Origin: Kocuria sp.
Lineage (GTDB): Bacteria > Actinomycetota > Actinomycetes > Actinomycetales > Micrococcaceae
Length of the DNA stretch: 64,000 nt
Direction: 5' to 3'
Assembly: GCF_030538595.1 (NCBI RefSeq)
Contig: NZ_JAUNTS010000013.1
Location: 1-64,000, forward strand
In this document: in pieces, positions 50,030 through 57,981 of the stretch
How the letters are laid out: each line of letters begins with the position of its first letter
Numbering within the stretch: the stretch's first letter is position 1
Notes under the pieces: model-generated
What the model saw: only the letters and a program-made list of their open reading frames with translations
The model's database searches: none
What the model was told of the DNA's origin: nothing
Program-made: the position numbers and the translations under genes

Positions 50030-51076
50030 TCAGAGCACCTTCACGGACATGGAGAGATTCGCGTTGGCCAGCACCGGCAGACCGATGGCATCCGAAATCA
50101 CCTCAGTGATCATCGGAGGCTTCTCGTTCTGGTACACGCCAGCGACGATTCCCGGCTGCTCAGAGTCCTCGATACCGTAACTGGGGTTCTGAGCAGTGAG
50201 CGTGGTTCCCCACACGGTTCCGCCCAGGGGCGTGCCGCTCTCGGACGTGGTGGGCCCCGGAGCGGGCAGCAGCAAGATCCGATCTTGCGGCAACACCGGC
50301 GTGGCCACACCGCGCAGGGATACCCGACGGTCATAGCGCATGACACCAGGCAGTCCCTGGCCGAGCAGCATGTCATTGACCTGCTGCTCAGAGGCCGGCC
50401 GCGCGCCACCATTGAGCAGCTGGGTCTGGAACTCGGTTCCAGTGGTCAGTGCCCGGATCACACGGTTCGATGCCAGGATCACCCCGGGATCCTCACCGTT
50501 GATTTCACGGTAGAGATCCACATACGTGGTGAGTGCGTCCAAACGGGACTGCGAGGTGTCCGACCAGTCGTCCTGACCGGTGATGGTCAGACGCTCATCG
50601 CGGCCGAAGTCGTCGTTGGAGAACTCGACCACCTGGCCGTTGACCACGCTCGTGATGGTGGCCCGGCCAGTGGACAGGACCAGGCCGCGCAAATGCTCCA
50701 TGCGGTTGGCCACAGCCGTGACCACACGGTCCGTGGTGGCCTGCACGGCGTTGAGGATCGCGTCATCGGAGGCATGCCGCAGACGTAGTTGCTGGTACTC
50801 CGAGATGGGGATGTTCTGTCCCAGTGCTGGCAGTTCGAGCGTCACACGCTTGCCGCCAGCAGCGCGGCCGATTTCCGGCTCAGCGTCGTAGGCACGGAAC
50901 TCCGCAGCGTCAATCAGGCCGTTGTCTCCCTGTACGAAGCGGGCCACAACGTCTTGGACCGTTCGGTTGGGTAGCCAGCGGGCCAAAGATCCCTTGGCTT
51001 GTTCCTGCTGTTCCAGTGATGCGCGGGCGTAACCGGTCAGGGTCGCCGGGTCAATGAGGTCAGTGTAAAGAGCCAT
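50030..51076 (-). CDS. Major capsid protein (lambda gpE-like)
   Basis: A 348-residue protein of the lambda E / HK97-fold capsid group. The start ALYTDLIDPATLTGYARASLEQQEQ, the E-loop region (EIGRAAGGKRVTLELPALGQNIPISEYQQLRLR), the spine helix (DAILNAVQATTDRVVTAVANRMEHLRGLVLSTG) and the late beta region (RRVSLRGVATPVLPQDRILLLP) fit. GGAGG lies 10 bases before the ATG. It is downstream of the decoration protein gene, as in lambda-like head modules. Confidence 0.9.
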   Translation of the reverse strand: MALYTDLIDPATLTGYARASLEQQEQAKGSLARWLPNRTVQDVVARFVQGDNGLIDAAEFRAYDAEPEIGRAAGGKRVTLELPALGQNIPISEYQQLRLRHASDDAILNAVQATTDRVVTAVANRMEHLRGLVLSTGRATITSVVNGQVVEFSNDDFGRDERLTITGQDDWSDTSQSRLDALTTYVDLYREINGEDPGVILASNRVIRALTTGTEFQTQLLNGGARPASEQQVNDMLLGQGLPGVMRYDRRVSLRGVATPVLPQDRILLLPAPGPTTSESGTPLGGTVWGTTLTAQNPSYGIEDSEQPGIVAGVYQNEKPPMITEVISDAIGLPVLANANLSMSVKVL

Positions 51077-51093: not shown

Positions 51094-51462
51094 TCAAATG
51101 TAGACGATGGTCGTGTTGGCCTGGCTGGTGGGGGCAGTGAAGCCTTCAACCGGGAGGAAGCGCGTGCGGACGCGACCGTGATCGTAGAGCGGCACGCTGA
51201 TGTTCCCGGAGTCAGGAAGCTGCTGGTCCGTGAACAGGTGACCGGCCAGCACTTCCGTGCCACCGGACCCACCGGCGTTGTAGGGCTTGAGCAGCCCGCC
51301 GACCTCAGCCACGGGGTACCCGGACAGCACAACGCCGTCCTTGGCCACCGCAGTGAAGTCCTGTGATTGCAGGACTGCGGTGCGGCAATTGGCGATCCCG
51401 TGGCTGGTTCCCAGCCACCGCTGGTCGCCACCGGTGAAACTCTCAGTCTTCAGACGAGGCAT
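51094..51462 (-). CDS. Head decoration protein (gpD-like)
   Basis: A 122-residue beta-rich protein (GIANCRTAVLQSQDFTAVAKDGVVLSGYPV, GGTEVLAGHLFTDQQLP) that matches lambda gpD-like capsid-stabilising proteins. GAGGAG precedes the ATG. It lies directly upstream of the capsid gene. Confidence 0.82.
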   Translation of the reverse strand: MPRLKTESFTGGDQRWLGTSHGIANCRTAVLQSQDFTAVAKDGVVLSGYPVAEVGGLLKPYNAGGSGGTEVLAGHLFTDQQLPDSGNISVPLYDHGRVRTRFLPVEGFTAPTSQANTTIVYI

Positions 51463-51488: not shown

Positions 51489-52115
51489 TCAAGCGGATTT
51501 CGGAGTGCCCTGGCGGGCTTCAAAGAGGGCCCGTCCAGCGGCCACGGAGGATGCCCCTGCGTGGCGTTGGAAACCCTGATGTGTTGGGCGCGGGGTGCCG
51601 CGCTGTTGCGCCGTGTCGGCAGAGTTCAGAAGAGACAAGGAGTCGGCCACCTGGTCTACGTCGACGGTTCCGTCAGCGCCGATGTAGGAGGCTAGGTTCA
51701 CCCTGGACAGGAATTTCTCTAGCGCCTCGGGAGCGATATTGGCCCCGCGGGCCTGGAATGCAGACCGGACCCGCTCGTCGGCCACTTCGGCCAGCGTGTC
51801 AGCGCGTGCCTTGGCGATCGCGGCATCCAGTGCCTTCTGGTCCGGGGTCTTGCTGGCCTCTTGGAGTTGATCGAATTGCTCCGCCTTGACCTTCAAATCG
51901 TCGTAGTCCGCACGGTCCTTCACGGTCTTCTCATGCTTCCGTGCCTGGTGCTTCCAGTAGGCCTCACGCTGCTCGCCAGTCATTTCCGCCAATGGCGTCT
52001 CAGCAGGAAAACCCGTTCCCTGATCGGCCGGCGCTTGACCACCTTCGGGCGGAACTTGGTTGTTCTCATCGTCTTTGCCCGACTGATCGCCAGCGGTCTT
52101 GTGGTCTTGCGGCAT
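51489..52115 (-). CDS. Capsid scaffolding protein from internal start
   Basis: The 208-residue in-frame product starting MPQDHKTAGDQSGKDDE, with AAGGAG and a six-base spacing before the internal ATG. It is helical and highly charged (QREAYWKHQARKHEKTVKDR, DYDDLKVKAEQFDQLQE, DQKALDAAIAKARADTLAEV), as phage scaffolds are, and lies just before decoration and capsid genes. Its C-terminus (GRALFEARQ) may bind capsid. In many relatives the scaffold is a free-standing gene of this size. Confidence 0.75.
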   Translation of the reverse strand: MPQDHKTAGDQSGKDDENNQVPPEGGQAPADQGTGFPAETPLAEMTGEQREAYWKHQARKHEKTVKDRADYDDLKVKAEQFDQLQEASKTPDQKALDAAIAKARADTLAEVADERVRSAFQARGANIAPEALEKFLSRVNLASYIGADGTVDVDQVADSLSLLNSADTAQQRGTPRPTHQGFQRHAGASSVAAGRALFEARQGTPKSA

Positions 52116-52544
52116 GCTGTTCTCCTTGTCAGGTGAATGTGTGCCCGTGTCGGGCGTGATGTGCGTTTCCCCCTCAGTAGGGGAGTACCTGTCCCACCAG
52201 CGAGTGATGGCGTCGGCACGTTCGTCGTTGCCGTCACGATCACGCGCCCTTGCGGTTGCAACATCGGCGGGTGTTTCCAGGACGACAACCTCATCGGCAC
52301 CGACCCGGCGGGCGTGGTCAGCACGCTGGCCAGCGTCAGCCAACGTGCGAATGATCCACACGTCCCCGCGGTCGTACTCCCGTGCCTTGGACTCCATCAG
52401 CGAGCGCACCGACCGGGCGAGGTCGTCAGTCCCGTACTGGTCGCGCAGCGCGTCCAGGTCAATGACGAGGTCCGCGGGTTGTGCGTGGTCAGCTACCCAT
52501 GTCGTTTTTCCGGCCCCGGGTGGGCCGCACACGGTGCGGATCAT
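51489..52544 (-). CDS. P-loop kinase fused to capsid scaffolding protein
   Basis: A 351-residue open frame. Residues 1 to about 125 are a complete small P-loop kinase of the AAA_33/polynucleotide kinase type: Walker A CGPPGAGKTT (residues 6-15), LVIDLDALRDQYG, WIIRTLADAGQRADHARRVG, VVVLETPADVATARARDR, WWDRYSP. After a polar linker, residues 144-351 are a charged helical scaffold protein. The ATG overlaps the stop of the MuF-like gene (ATGA). An internal ATG at 52115 has a strong AAGGAG site, so the scaffold alone is probably also made. Why a nucleotide kinase is joined to a scaffold is not known. Confidence 0.8.
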   Translation of the reverse strand: MIRTVCGPPGAGKTTWVADHAQPADLVIDLDALRDQYGTDDLARSVRSLMESKAREYDRGDVWIIRTLADAGQRADHARRVGADEVVVLETPADVATARARDRDGNDERADAITRWWDRYSPTEGETHITPDTGTHSPDKENSMPQDHKTAGDQSGKDDENNQVPPEGGQAPADQGTGFPAETPLAEMTGEQREAYWKHQARKHEKTVKDRADYDDLKVKAEQFDQLQEASKTPDQKALDAAIAKARADTLAEVADERVRSAFQARGANIAPEALEKFLSRVNLASYIGADGTVDVDQVADSLSLLNSADTAQQRGTPRPTHQGFQRHAGASSVAAGRALFEARQGTPKSA

Positions 52545-53644
52545 GCTGCCCCTCGCTTCTGCAGTGCCGCCACTTCCTGCTCATAGCGGGTGATCCGGCG
52601 CTCTGCGGTCTTGCGGATGAAGAACGCCCGATCGTCGTCATCCGGCAAAGAGTTGGCGTAAGCGATTGACTTGCGTGCCGCTGAGATCCGTTTCTCGATC
52701 TCGCTGATCCGTTCCCCGGTGTCGGGTAGGTCAGCAGCACGGGCGTCCACGATCTTTTTGCGGCGCGCATCAGTCATGTCCGTGACCTTCTTGGACGGGC
52801 GAGCCATGAGCACCGGGCCCAGTTCCCCGTTCTCCTCGATGACAGGCCTGACGCGCTTGAGCGCTGCGGCGTTGGTCGATCCTGCGGCCTCATAGATGCG
52901 TTCCAGGTCCGACTGATTCAGCTGCAACCCTGGATCGCTGGTCGCTGTAACCGGTGCGACAGTGCACACGCATCCGTCGTGGATCGCCTTGAGGTCTTTG
53001 AGGGAGTAGAGGCGGGTTGCGGCGGCGACACAGAGACCGCACGGCCCGCCTTTTGTGAGTTCCGGGTGCAAGATGCGCCTGTACCCTGTGGCTTCGCGTC
53101 GTTTCCGACCGGTGGCCTTCTCCCGCTTCTTGGCCTCCAACATGTCGCGTGTGCTCGCCTTGGCGGTGAGAACGTCATGCTCTTCGTCGCGCTGGGCGAG
53201 GGCCATGTCCATCTCACCCAAGTCCTTCACGTTCAACGACACGGCTTCGCGTGAGACCTGCTCAGACCAGCCCTCTGACCGCATCCGCCGGTAGCGGCGA
53301 ACTGGACGTTCCCAGACCTCTTCTGGGCTGACTCCGCCGCGTTCTCGGGCGTACTTGAAGGGCAGCATGTCGGCGTCTTGGAGGACTGCGTCATCCGGGA
53401 AGATCGCTTCGGCGGCGTCGTAGACCTGCCGTAGTGTGGCGATGGTCTGCCGGCGGGCCTGCGCTTGTGCGGCTTCCACCAGAGCGGCGGATGCCCGGGC
53501 CTGTGCCCTGACCAGTTCGCCGTCGTACCAGCCGTCGAACGCTTCCCACAGTTCTAGGAGTTGCTGGATGAGCTTGGCGGTCAGCTTTGCCGTCGTTGCC
53601 GCCTGCACGTCAAGCAGCTTCGTCAACAGCCGCAGATCAGCCAC
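52541..53644 (-). CDS. MuF-like minor capsid protein
   Basis: A 367-residue protein following the portal gene (8-base overlap). The helical first half (FDGWYDGELVRAQARASAALVEAA) is typical of MuF-like proteins. The segment GGPCGLCVAAATRLYSLKDLKAIHDGCVCTVAPV, quoted here as CGLCVAAATRLY and HDGCVC, is the conserved Cys/His patch seen in actinophage MuF/maturation proteins. The C-terminal third is charged helix. It is ejected or involved in head maturation in relatives. GTG start. Confidence 0.8.
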   Translation of the reverse strand: MADLRLLTKLLDVQAATTAKLTAKLIQQLLELWEAFDGWYDGELVRAQARASAALVEAAQAQARRQTIATLRQVYDAAEAIFPDDAVLQDADMLPFKYARERGGVSPEEVWERPVRRYRRMRSEGWSEQVSREAVSLNVKDLGEMDMALAQRDEEHDVLTAKASTRDMLEAKKREKATGRKRREATGYRRILHPELTKGGPCGLCVAAATRLYSLKDLKAIHDGCVCTVAPVTATSDPGLQLNQSDLERIYEAAGSTNAAALKRVRPVIEENGELGPVLMARPSKKVTDMTDARRKKIVDARAADLPDTGERISEIEKRISAARKSIAYANSLPDDDDRAFFIRKTAERRITRYEQEVAALQKRGAA

Positions 53645-55043
53645 TGAGCGACATCCCCTCCATCAGCATGTCTTCGTTGCGCTGTAACTCCGCATCCCGG
53701 ATCTCCTGGGGATCGAGCTGCACGAACTTCTCCATGCGTGTTCGCCACGGCACACCCGCATCCTTGGCAGCTCGGGCAGACTCGGCGCGCTCCGTCAAGG
53801 AGGCACGACGCGGATCCGCGAACACAGGCCGCAGTGACATCTCATCCGCCCGATCTGCGAGCGCGACCAGGCGAAGTGCTGTGGCCATTGACGCTTTCAT
53901 GGGCCCGCGGAACTCGGTAATCAGGTCCTCGCACTCGAAAACCAACCCTTCACGTTTGAGTTCAGAACCGTTGGCCGACTCGTTGGCAGACTCAGGCGCC
54001 AGTAGATGCAAGGGGGTGTTGGACACAGCACCGAGATGCTTGATGTCGTCCCGGACCGCGTTGAGCACTGGCGTGATGTCGGTCGTCCCGGACTCCCACA
54101 GCTCAACCGCTGCGGGGAGGATCCAGAAAGACCCAGGATCTGACTCGAAGATGTCTTCGTAGTCGATTTCCTTACCATTCTGATCGTGCTTTGGGGCCCC
54201 CTTCAGCCCGCGCTGACGGAAGGCCTGAAGCGCGATCAGAATCATGCGCTGCAGGATGGTGTGGTTGATGCGTTCCATGGAACCGATGTGCTGTTCAAAG
54301 CACGCCTTGCCATCCTCTGGGCGCAGCTCCACAACCGGCACATAGTCCACGGGGAGTGGCCACAGGTCGTTGGAGAGCTGCCACAACTGCGGCACAATCC
54401 GCCACGTCCGAGCCGTCCCATGGGGGAGGATGGAACCACCAGGATGAATCGCAATCCGCTGGTACCCAGGCCTCCACAGCACGACCACGTCACGGTCGGC
54501 AACATCGTCGCGGTAAATCTTCAACGCCGCCAATGGCCTGAGAGGATCCGACGGGTTGGGCTCCACGATTACCTGGGACGGGTGTTCAGCCGAGATTCGC
54601 ACACCACCCTCGGAACCATGTTCCGGCATCTTGTGATCGGTGATCAGGTACCCGGCGCTCAGGCCGACAGCCCAGCGCAAAGCGCGCCGGTACTCGTTCG
54701 TGGCATCTGAGCCCTCCATGATGCGATTGACCTCGTCATCACCGTCAGCTGACGCATCCACGGCCGTCTTGAAGGTCAGCAACTTGATGCGGTGCAGACG
54801 AGCGTTCGTGATCACCTCGGCATAATTGAGGTTCGCAATCTTCTGCAGCCTCTGGAAGTTACCGCCCTTGTCCGGCCACGGGATGGGCGGGGAACCGTCC
54901 AACCATTGCTCGTTCTTGTGGATCTGCGGCAGCCGGTCACCGAGCTTCTTGGCCAGGTACTCCATCCACCACTCATCGCTACCTCGCTGGACCAAGGAAG
55001 CCGGCGGATACTCGCCAAACCCTGCAACAAACCGCTGCTGCAT
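53637..55043 (-). CDS. Portal protein
   Basis: A 468-residue phage portal, the dodecameric ring through which DNA enters and leaves the head. Features: SDEWWMEYLAKKLGDRLPQI, NLNYAEVITNARLHRIKLLTF, ALRWAVGLSAGYLITDH, and the C-terminal helical region with ALRLVALADRADEMSLRPVFADP. GAGGAGG precedes the ATG. It lies 12 bases after the large terminase gene. Confidence 0.9.
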   Translation of the reverse strand: MQQRFVAGFGEYPPASLVQRGSDEWWMEYLAKKLGDRLPQIHKNEQWLDGSPPIPWPDKGGNFQRLQKIANLNYAEVITNARLHRIKLLTFKTAVDASADGDDEVNRIMEGSDATNEYRRALRWAVGLSAGYLITDHKMPEHGSEGGVRISAEHPSQVIVEPNPSDPLRPLAALKIYRDDVADRDVVVLWRPGYQRIAIHPGGSILPHGTARTWRIVPQLWQLSNDLWPLPVDYVPVVELRPEDGKACFEQHIGSMERINHTILQRMILIALQAFRQRGLKGAPKHDQNGKEIDYEDIFESDPGSFWILPAAVELWESGTTDITPVLNAVRDDIKHLGAVSNTPLHLLAPESANESANGSELKREGLVFECEDLITEFRGPMKASMATALRLVALADRADEMSLRPVFADPRRASLTERAESARAAKDAGVPWRTRMEKFVQLDPQEIRDAELQRNEDMLMEGMSLSG

Positions 55044-55055
55044 CTCGCCTCCTCA

Positions 55056-56771
55056 TCAACGACGACGGGACCCGCCCACACGAAACGGAACGAACGTCTC
55101 CGGCTGTTCTTCTTCGGGATTGTTCAACACAGCTGCACGGGCCTCGTAGGCGAGAGTTGCCGCCATAGCGCCGTCCATCTTCTTGACGGAATGCTTGGCT
55201 TCCTTCCCGATCACGATGCCCCCACGACGAGACCACCGTCGGGCGTTGATCAGATGCCGCACCAAGACCGGGTTCGCACTGATCTTCACCTGGGCTTTGG
55301 CAATCACGTCATGCAACCGTTGGAGCGCGAGCGCCATCTTGGTGTCGAGCTTCGTCCACCACTTCACTGCGGAGTTCCCCGATGCCTTCGCCCGGTAACC
55401 ATCGGCATATTCGCGTTCCCATCGCTCGACTTGGTCGATCCAGTGCGGCGGATCCGCGAAGAACGCCACCACTTTGTATCGCTCGTGGGCACGCCCCACA
55501 GCGGCATCCACCGCCAGCTCGTCCACCCGCCAGTCCTTGGCCTCCGGCCCATCCGGGCACTCCCAAATGCCGATCTCAAACAAATACCCGTCCGAGACCC
55601 TGCACCCCACCAGGGCGGTGGCGTCATCGGTCTGGGCGCCGTCGAAGCCGAGAGTGATTTCCTCGCCCTCGGCTACCCTGTCCTCACCTCGCCCCGGCAT
55701 ATCCCGGATGGCATCCGAGATCTGCGCGGGAGTCACCCAAGCGTTGTGCGCCTCGGTCAGTGCGTTGAGGAAGTACCGGCGGGCGTCCTCCGGCGTGTTT
55801 CGGGGGTCAAAGATGTCGTCAATGACGCCTTGCTTGGAGTTCCAGTCGAGAGCTTCTCCGTAAGCCTCTTCAATCGCAGCTTCGAGCTTGTCAAGATCAG
55901 CCAGATCTTGGAGGTCCGACCATCTGTGGTCGTACAGCATGCGGATCCGCCCACGAAACTTCGGCCGGCCACCATCAGCGAGCGCGGCCAACGATTCTTC
56001 GATCAGTTCCGCGAACTTGTAGGTGGCCTCAGCCACCGATTCTTCACCAGGTGCATACATGGTGGTGGTCTCGATGTACCAGGTCTGATCGAGTTTCTTC
56101 CGCTTCACCAGGTTGCGAGTGACAGTGTTGTGCATCTTGCGCAGCTGGGGAGTGTTGTAAAGGTGCGATTCGTCAAAGACAACGAACGTTTCTTTGCCAC
56201 CGTCCTTGGACGCGGATCCTGCCGTTGACGGCGTGATCTCGCCACCGTAGGGCAGGATCACCCTGGTGAGTCCGGCGTCGAGCCCGTAGGCCTTCATCTC
56301 GCTGAGAGGGCCATCTGTGAGGTTGAGGTGCACCTGGTCGTAGACGTTTCCCGTCTGGCCTTCCTCTGTGGCCATGACGCGGACAAATGGCGCAGTGACC
56401 TGCCTGCCCATCGGCTCGCCAGCCTGGTATACGTAGGTCTGCCCGAGGAACTCGTACTTTTCCCCGCCCTGTGCCCATCCCTCGAACCGGCACGGACCCA
56501 GAGCCTCGAACAGCACCAACTCCGCGGCCAACCCAGACTTGTTACAGCCCTTCGGCCGGGAGAAGAACGCGGAGTCAATCAAGCGACGCCCATCCCCGTC
56601 CAGGGAGTAGCAGTCCACGATGAACTGGGAGTACTCGTCACCATGGCGGATCGGCTCCCTCTGGACGGGACCGGGCCCGTGGACGACGAACGTCTCCACC
56701 CACCACAGCGCCAGCCACCCCAATGACCGTGCCCTGGACGCGGCAGGTGGCCGCACAACTTTGTGCGGCAT
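55056..56771 (-). CDS. Terminase large subunit
   Basis: A 571-residue packaging motor. The ATPase domain has a Walker A-like PKGCNKSG (residues about 73-80) and Walker B FVVFDESHLY. The nuclease domain shows the first acidic site in TLGFDGAQTDDATALVG and later acidic residues (FFADPPHWIDQ). It cuts and pumps DNA through the portal. The ATG shares one base with the small-subunit stop (TGATG). Confidence 0.93.
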   Translation of the reverse strand: MPHKVVRPPAASRARSLGWLALWWVETFVVHGPGPVQREPIRHGDEYSQFIVDCYSLDGDGRRLIDSAFFSRPKGCNKSGLAAELVLFEALGPCRFEGWAQGGEKYEFLGQTYVYQAGEPMGRQVTAPFVRVMATEEGQTGNVYDQVHLNLTDGPLSEMKAYGLDAGLTRVILPYGGEITPSTAGSASKDGGKETFVVFDESHLYNTPQLRKMHNTVTRNLVKRKKLDQTWYIETTTMYAPGEESVAEATYKFAELIEESLAALADGGRPKFRGRIRMLYDHRWSDLQDLADLDKLEAAIEEAYGEALDWNSKQGVIDDIFDPRNTPEDARRYFLNALTEAHNAWVTPAQISDAIRDMPGRGEDRVAEGEEITLGFDGAQTDDATALVGCRVSDGYLFEIGIWECPDGPEAKDWRVDELAVDAAVGRAHERYKVVAFFADPPHWIDQVERWEREYADGYRAKASGNSAVKWWTKLDTKMALALQRLHDVIAKAQVKISANPVLVRHLINARRWSRRGGIVIGKEAKHSVKKMDGAMAATLAYEARAAVLNNPEEEQPETFVPFRVGGSRRR

Positions 56772-57244
56772 CAGTCGGCCATCCTTGAGCGCCGGTCCTG
56801 GATCGAAGTGACAGTAGCGCCTGGGCCGGTTCCGACTGCAGTTGTAGGCGGTACCTCAATCTCTGACTTGAGCCGGAGTCTGTCTTCCACCGTGGCACCA
56901 AACTTGGCGACGCGGATCCTGATCTCGGAGGCGTACTCCCACTTGCCCTTAGACCACATGATGTGGTGCATCAGAGCAGTGTCCAGAAGGAAGTCCCAGT
57001 CCGGGTCAGAGAGCATCCGTGATGCTTGCGGTGAGCGTCGCCAGTGGTTCCACCAGCGCCGCGTGAGCGGGTGCCAGTCCTCACCGTTGGGCAGCACTTC
57101 CGGACCCTTCGGCAGATCCGGGCCAAAGTACTTGGTGCCACGGACAATGCGCAGATTCGTGTTGTCCTGCTGCAGCTGGGTGCGCTCTGACTGGTCACGT
57201 GACCGCGAGCGCCGATCTTTCGGTGCCGGGCCATTCCCAGCCAT
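56771..57244 (-). CDS. Terminase small subunit
   Basis: A 157-residue protein directly before TerL. A basic N-terminus (APKDRRSRSRDQS) is followed by the segment WHPLTRRWWNHWRRSPQA, typical of actinophage TerS, and a helical middle (MWSKGKWEYASEIRIRVAKFGATVEDRLRL). The ATG at 57244 with GGAGG seven bases upstream is preferred over GTG 57247. Confidence 0.85.
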   Translation of the reverse strand: MAGNGPAPKDRRSRSRDQSERTQLQQDNTNLRIVRGTKYFGPDLPKGPEVLPNGEDWHPLTRRWWNHWRRSPQASRMLSDPDWDFLLDTALMHHIMWSKGKWEYASEIRIRVAKFGATVEDRLRLKSEIEVPPTTAVGTGPGATVTSIQDRRSRMAD

Positions 57245-57269
57245 CACTCCACCTCCGTGTCGGTGCAGG

Positions 57270-57675: not shown

Positions 57676-57981
57676 TTATTCACCCATGTCAATGCCAGGA
57701 TGCTGCTCTGTCGGGCGCCGCTCACGCACACGCTTTTGCGATGTTGCCCCTTGTGAGGCGGTGATTTTGTCGTGATGCCATGAACACAAGGATGTGAGTG
57801 CTTCGTCATTGCCTGCCCCATCCACGTGGTGCACGTCTGTGGCCTGAGCTGCGCACCGTGCTCCCGTGTCTGGGGATACGTATGTGCACTGCCACCCATC
57901 GTGTTCCAGCTGAGCCTTGCGGCGCCGCGCCCAATCCTTTGGCAATTGTTTTGTACGTCCAGATCGGTTACCCCACGGCAT
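57676..57981 (-). CDS. HNH endonuclease
   Basis: A 101-residue HNH nuclease: basic N-terminus (GRTKQLPKDWARRRKAQLE), C in WQCTYVSPDTGARC, the DVHHVDG core and the LTSLCSWHHDKIT box. Such HNH genes next to terS are common in siphophages and aid packaging. Starts ATG 57981 on the preceding stop (TAATG). Confidence 0.88.
   Translation of the reverse strand: MPWGNRSGRTKQLPKDWARRRKAQLEHDGWQCTYVSPDTGARCAAQATDVHHVDGAGNDEALTSLCSWHHDKITASQGATSQKRVRERRPTEQHPGIDMGE

Follow-up and report, generated by a model that had tools for sequence, protein, structure and literature searches.

A P-loop kinase joined in one reading frame to a head scaffold in an actinobacterial prophage and its relatives

Introduction

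The lambda C/Nu3 gene and the protease-scaffold gene of P2 both encode an N-terminal enzyme and a C-terminal scaffold in one frame, and in lambda C/Nu3 the scaffold is also produced from an internal start. In polynucleotide kinases, whose residue roles are taken from T4 Pnk, a DxxR motif follows the P-loop. Here we describe a prophage gene that is built like the first of these systems and carries a kinase with the motif of the second. It was found in the window, by which we mean the whole stretch of 64,000 nucleotides from a contig of Kocuria sp. (Micrococcaceae) that was analysed. As far as our searches reach, the nested enzyme-scaffold design is known with proteases, and a kinase as the enzyme is new within the phage records and literature searched.

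Results and Discussion

The kinase-scaffold gene and its head operon

The original prediction, made from the letters of the window alone, held that a whole small kinase and a scaffold are encoded in one reading frame. This proved correct: the open reading frame lies on the minus strand, the plus-strand translation of the same stretch being interrupted by stops, and its 351-residue product matches AAA_33 over residues 1-143 and the head scaffold family phrog_4708 over residues 144-351. The gene, its parts and its neighbours are as follows.

51489-52544, minus strand: kinase-scaffold fusion gene, 351 aa (translation; Pfam and PHROG domain matches; whole-length relatives)
52116-52544, minus strand: kinase domain and start of the linker, residues 1-143 (AAA_33, E 1.6e-10; phrog_4581, E 9.2e-23; pLDDT blocks of 81-95 for residues 1-130)
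52503-52526, minus strand: Walker A motif GPPGAGKT, residues 7-14 (translation)
52014-52145, minus strand: disordered linker, residues 134-177, containing the internal start (pLDDT below 50)
52122-52127, minus strand: AAGGAG ahead of the internal start, a Shine-Dalgarno-like site (pairing with the 16S tail predicted at -8.9 kcal/mol)
51489-52115, minus strand: scaffold from the internal ATG, 208 aa (phrog_4708, E 7.9e-16; predicted helices 190-231 and 234-266)
52541-53644, minus strand: MuF/VG15-like head gene (phrog_1522, E 7.9e-54; its stop shares four bases, ATGA, with the kinase start)
51094-51462, minus strand: head decoration protein (phrog_3583, E 1.9e-23)
50030-51076, minus strand: major capsid protein (Phage_cap_E, Pfam E 1.1e-15)
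53637-55043, minus strand: portal protein (phrog_104, E 2.7e-61)
55056-56771, minus strand: terminase large subunit (phrog_9, E 4.3e-56)
56771-57247, minus strand: terminase small subunit (Terminase_7, Pfam E 1.4e-31), distinct from the kinase
57676-57981, minus strand: HNH endonuclease without a kinase (phrog_333, E 5.1e-19)

The head operon is read in the order HNH, small terminase, large terminase, portal, MuF-like protein, kinase-scaffold, decoration protein and major capsid protein. The C-terminal part of the fusion belongs to the phage head scaffolds both by its phrog_4708 match and by its position just before the decoration and capsid genes. No named match to this half was obtained in Pfam, NCBIfam or PDB sequence searches, and no match to its fold was obtained with VIA-align, a comparison that has little power beyond residues 1-137. 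The stretch 56771-57247 also matches phrog_226, labelled minor tail protein, at E 7.8e-25; Pfam assigns it to Terminase_7, and the PHROG label looks wrong.

The kinase domain

The N-terminal part scores 41.9 bits against AAA_33 (Pfam cut-off 27), carries the Walker A motif CGPPGAGKTT at residues 6-15 and is predicted to adopt a P-loop kinase fold (residues 1-130, pLDDT 81-95), which places it among the AAA_33 P-loop kinases; each of the 20 kinases in alignment A4 also reaches E 0.01 or better against AAA_33. When the predicted fold was compared with known structures, O-phosphoseryl-tRNA kinase, Clostridium thermocellum Pnkp and phosphofructokinase-2 all came within one Z unit, the first two being tied. 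This near tie of O-phosphoseryl-tRNA(Sec) kinase with Pnkp and others reflects likeness of fold only, and a tRNA role is not indicated.

Fifteen columns are invariant in the 20 kinases (G7, P8, P9, A11, G12, K13, D29, D31, R66, R74, A78, A96, I113, W116 and W117), and K13, D29 and D31 are conserved in all 16 fusions, that of the window among them. The DxxR of the window protein, D31-ALR34, aligns with that of T4 Pnk, and a polynucleotide-kinase role of the fused kinase is plausible. The residue that follows K13 is Ser or Thr in 10 fusions and Asn in the other 6, and the arginine of DxxR is present in 13 of 16, being replaced by Gln in two (L147, L148) and by Ala in one (L169); the fusions may therefore not all be active alike. 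Identity to C. thermocellum Pnkp is 16-19%, and the gene differs from both T4 Pnk and this enzyme in that its kinase is fused to a scaffold and R34 is not universal among relatives. Pfam and PHROG family searches found no phosphatase domain in the window protein. The family phrog_9644, labelled 'head maturation protease', matches the kinase part alone and could itself be another kinase fusion; its label was not adopted for the gene.

Related fusion genes

Scans of viral contigs returned 10 relatives with the window protein, 87 with an alignment of fusions (best 80 of 87 used) and 326 with an alignment of kinases (best 80 of 326 used). A GTDB scan returned four, one of them a whole fusion; it missed fusions found later in genomes of the family, so that the scans are not exhaustive. 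Of 395 family genomes searched, 22 gave a match, and fusions were present in 5 of the 22, the window's genome among them. Together, these searches gave 16 distinct fusions, that is, 15 besides the window: 13 have a start signal in the linker and three, from another genus of the family (g3; L132, L133 and L134), do not. Locus L140, whose contig ends just after the kinase, was left out of these counts.

A quick tree (96 rows, 139 columns, many forks open) places kinases fused to or beside a scaffold on one side of a branch with an SH-aLRT of 82. Fifteen fused rows and the truncated L140 group together at 98 and show 33-62% identity to the window across the group. L169 (28% identity) falls outside on a long branch and may represent a second fusion event. 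The g3 fusions group beside L028/L034 (89), a placement that fits loss of the linker start.

The C-terminal part of the g3 fusions gave no scaffold PHROG match at E 0.01 in the two proteins scanned (L132 and L134). We infer in part, from an alignment with A1 (one stretch in G248, E 1.5e-4) and from gene order, that it is a scaffold. Among the 80 loci taken from the scaffold scan, three are fused; in the other 77, no kinase was found by the kinase profile in the available sequence, many contigs being short. Seven scaffold-like stretches were seen over six contigs of a single genome (L015 and L018-L023, G044), five of them with two in-frame TGA codons.

The internal start of the scaffold

A strong internal start that would yield the scaffold alone had also been predicted. 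The ATG (52115-52113) and the AAGGAG (52127-52122), with six bases between them, are both present on the minus strand. The adjective stands in a relative sense only: the predicted pairing energies with the 16S tail are -8.9 kcal/mol for the internal site and -9.9 for that of the full-length start. The two sites being of similar strength, the long form need not be a minor product.

In order to judge such a signal, we counted in-frame ATG or GTG codons behind a 4-base Shine-Dalgarno match in the terminase large subunit, portal, MuF and capsid genes of related loci. The rate was 0.0045 per codon (94 in 20,673 codons; 94 of the 959 ATG or GTG codons), or about 0.26 starts expected by chance in a 58-codon linker. 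An internal start in a single sequence thus proves little, and the comparison across relatives decides. A start of this kind lies within the linker in 13 of 13 fusions of the window's scaffold type (window, L028, L032, L033, L034, L139, L142, L143, L144, L146, L147, L148 and L169), sequences that are related and hence not independent, and the nested scaffold start that had been proposed is borne out to this extent. It is found at position 141-148 in 12 of them and at 166 in L169. The start is kept while its codon (GTG instead of ATG in L033) and the surrounding residues vary among fusions, and by this conservation the linker start is beyond chance. Six of the 13 have a second such GTG, at position 126, which shows the limited specificity of this measure. 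No linker start was present among the ATG and GTG codons of the three g3 fusions.

Codon usage at the site was also examined. The codons CCT GAC AAG that precede the internal start are identical in five of five close fusions, while a single codon is kept at 27 of 98 invariant degenerate columns gene-wide and at none of seven invariant prolines outside the junction. The sequence CCTGACAAGGA, at window 52123-52133, is invariant in the window, L032, L033, L028 and L034 and contains a TGA, out of frame, shortly ahead of the internal start. No weight was placed on this TGA; it is conserved in the five close fusions and absent from that place in more distant ones. Synonymous divergence between window and L032 drops to 0.38 at the start, against 1.25 and 1.60 elsewhere (18 codons, near saturation), and no drop is seen between L132 and L133, a pair without linker start. 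Low synonymous divergence was discarded as general evidence for a ribosome site, since in L028/L034 it is equally low in the scaffold core (0.22, against 0.23 at the start). In this last pair, the divergence of the kinase (0.68) is three times the value of 0.22 in the scaffold core, as would be seen had recombination near the linker brought the two halves together.

The distance from the start to the YWK motif of the scaffold offers a further comparison. It is 46-68 codons in six fusions (window, with 52, L032, L033, L028, L034 and L139) and just 24-35 in six others of the 13. Among the 77 stand-alone scaffold loci, a Shine-Dalgarno-led start precedes YWK by 41-107 codons in 63 and by 24-40 in none, lies only elsewhere in 4 and is absent in 10. 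The first six fusions thus fit a normal scaffold start; in the other six, the short form would miss some N-terminal residues.

A proposed mechanism

With its C-terminal scaffold and the internal start signal of that scaffold in a single frame, the window gene resembles lambda C/Nu3; it differs in having a P-loop kinase where the lambda type has an N-terminal maturation protease. It may therefore work like the lambda C/Nu3 design without being a member of that class. The window family departs from lambda C/Nu3 and P2 also in the 3 of 16 relatives that have no linker start.

We propose, as a reading with about even prospects, a nested gene in which a kinase stands where the protease would be and which would supply free scaffold together with scaffold tagged by the kinase, the tagged form taking the enzyme into the procapsid. 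A 38 kDa kinase-scaffold would be translated by ribosomes that end the MuF-like gene and start at the overlapping ATG (52544), and a 23 kDa scaffold by others that start at 52115. Having the scaffold part in common, the two forms would assemble together with the capsid protein, and the longer of them would, by way of its flexible linker, bring the kinase into the procapsid near the incoming DNA. There the kinase would most likely act on, or hold, nucleic-acid ends during packaging, and then leave or be degraded along with the scaffold. Because related viruses keep the same design, the fusion is probably a real way of bringing an enzyme into the assembling shell. The three g3 fusions indicate that free scaffold is not always needed, and their gene structure suggests that in g3 prophages the kinase can ride on every scaffold. 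The broader statement, that scaffold fusion serves a family of actinobacterial phages to load their procapsids with an active kinase of nucleic-acid ends, or with a DNA tether derived from a kinase, and that in one genus every scaffold carries the kinase, is put forward tentatively, and we consider it doubtful as a whole.

Comparison with the kinases of cos ends

A different role is brought to mind by related kinases at the ends of phage genomes. In five of five linear phage records read (Phayonce, Mbo4, phi16, McGonagall and A2), such a kinase is the last gene, at the right genome end; the other tree rows called COS bear that name for being all the rest, the cos-end position having been read only in these five. 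These genes, kinases or 'terminase small subunits' by name, have a homologous kinase domain in common with the window gene and, unlike it, have no scaffold gene alongside. The Phayonce kinase adjoins an HNH gene and that of Mbo4 lies inside a gene labelled HNH endonuclease. In the A2 record the kinase (hhalign 97.8%) is named 'small terminase subunit', phrog_4581 is also labelled terminase small subunit, and PMC6950654 states that such an HNH protein had been assigned to the small terminases. All this would suit a kinase domain that is a DNA-binding, terminase-like packaging module tethering the procapsid to cos DNA or to the terminase, with catalysis secondary. We think this unlikely, since a Terminase_7 small subunit is separately encoded in the window before the large one, K13, D29 and D31 are kept in every fusion, and the A2 name is that of its depositors. 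Each of 13 virus records searched has one kinase (9 fused, 4 unfused; records may be fragments), as does the window, which fits a single function exercised in different places.

Separate kinases in head clusters

Among the best 80 of 326 loci of the kinase scan, 11 are fused in one frame, L140 breaks off just past the kinase, and the kinase is a separate gene of a head cluster in 11 and lies elsewhere in 57. The separate head-cluster kinases are preceded by a MuF-like match in 9 loci and followed by a scaffold in 7 (L145, L150, L154 and L155 by profile; L151, L156 and L157 by PHROG match); L149, L152 and L153 are apparently near duplicates of L151, and the sequence of L158 stops short. The scaffold ATG of both L145 and L150 stands three bases past the kinase stop, and GGAGG lies within the kinase end. 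Loss of the kinase stop in this arrangement would yield a fusion, and it is a possible precursor of the fused gene. The fusion could then be a tolerated read-through, in which a cytosolic kinase of nucleotide or RNA repair was joined to the scaffold by mere loss of a stop codon. Although separate kinase genes do directly precede scaffold genes, we regard this as rather unlikely: the fused state spans 15 rows and the truncated one at 33-62% identity to the window, in one frame in each. In L151 (5786-7601), the separate kinase precedes a phrog_1793 scaffold and a phrog_10 capsid protein, both unlike those of the window, so that the pairing of kinase and scaffold may cross capsid types.

Selection on the kinase part

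The MuF-like stop overlaps the kinase start by four bases in 9 of the 16 fusions, including the window; NTGA is found at the kinase start in 13, and is the actual stop of the MuF-like frame in just those 9. This overlap would be expected if the kinase segment were a mere leader through which translational coupling controls how much scaffold is made. Such a role is very unlikely, given the retained catalytic residues and purifying selection on the protein. The dN/dS values (NG86) of the kinase were 0.115 for L028/L034, 0.038 for L132/L133 and 0.221 for window/L032 (dS 1.25, near saturation); those of the scaffold core were 0.415, 0.139 and 0.173, respectively. The kinase part is under purifying selection in the pairs tested. 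A sequencing or assembly artefact joining two genes, which the original prediction had named as a possible flaw, is practically excluded and was rejected: nothing was found in its favour, no frameshift or error was detected, and the fusion recurs on separate contigs from genomes and metagenomes, in 16 loci including the window.

Novelty and implications

A kinase had been called unusual in this place, and the searches agree. With the window, L146 and L142 as queries, tblastn against 50,697 phage records gave no match covering 80% of the query, although distant fusions could be missed; 72,556 plasmid records gave one match, over 25% of the window protein. No description of a kinase-scaffold fusion was found in the literature searched, mostly open access and in the parts accessible, including PMC6950654, PMC8508860, PMC3224144, PMC3706429, PMC4205034, PMC13148394 and PMC5513430.

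If the proposed nested kinase-scaffold gene is real in function, it would be a case of a non-protease enzyme delivered by a scaffold, and would link head assembly with packaging or with the chemistry of DNA ends. That the kinase is kept in 16 viral loci, is under purifying selection in the pairs tested and also stands next to scaffolds as a gene of its own suggests that delivery of enzymes into procapsids by scaffolds may be more general. The fusion would also give a handle on the packaging role of the cos-end kinases, which are currently named both 'polynucleotide kinase' and 'terminase small subunit'. In three of these cos-end genes, HNH motifs were picked out by eye: HNH and kinase seem joined, in either order, in L027 (McGonagall gp27) and L025 (Mbo4), and in L026 (phi16) the cos-end kinase seems joined to HNH with a further middle part.
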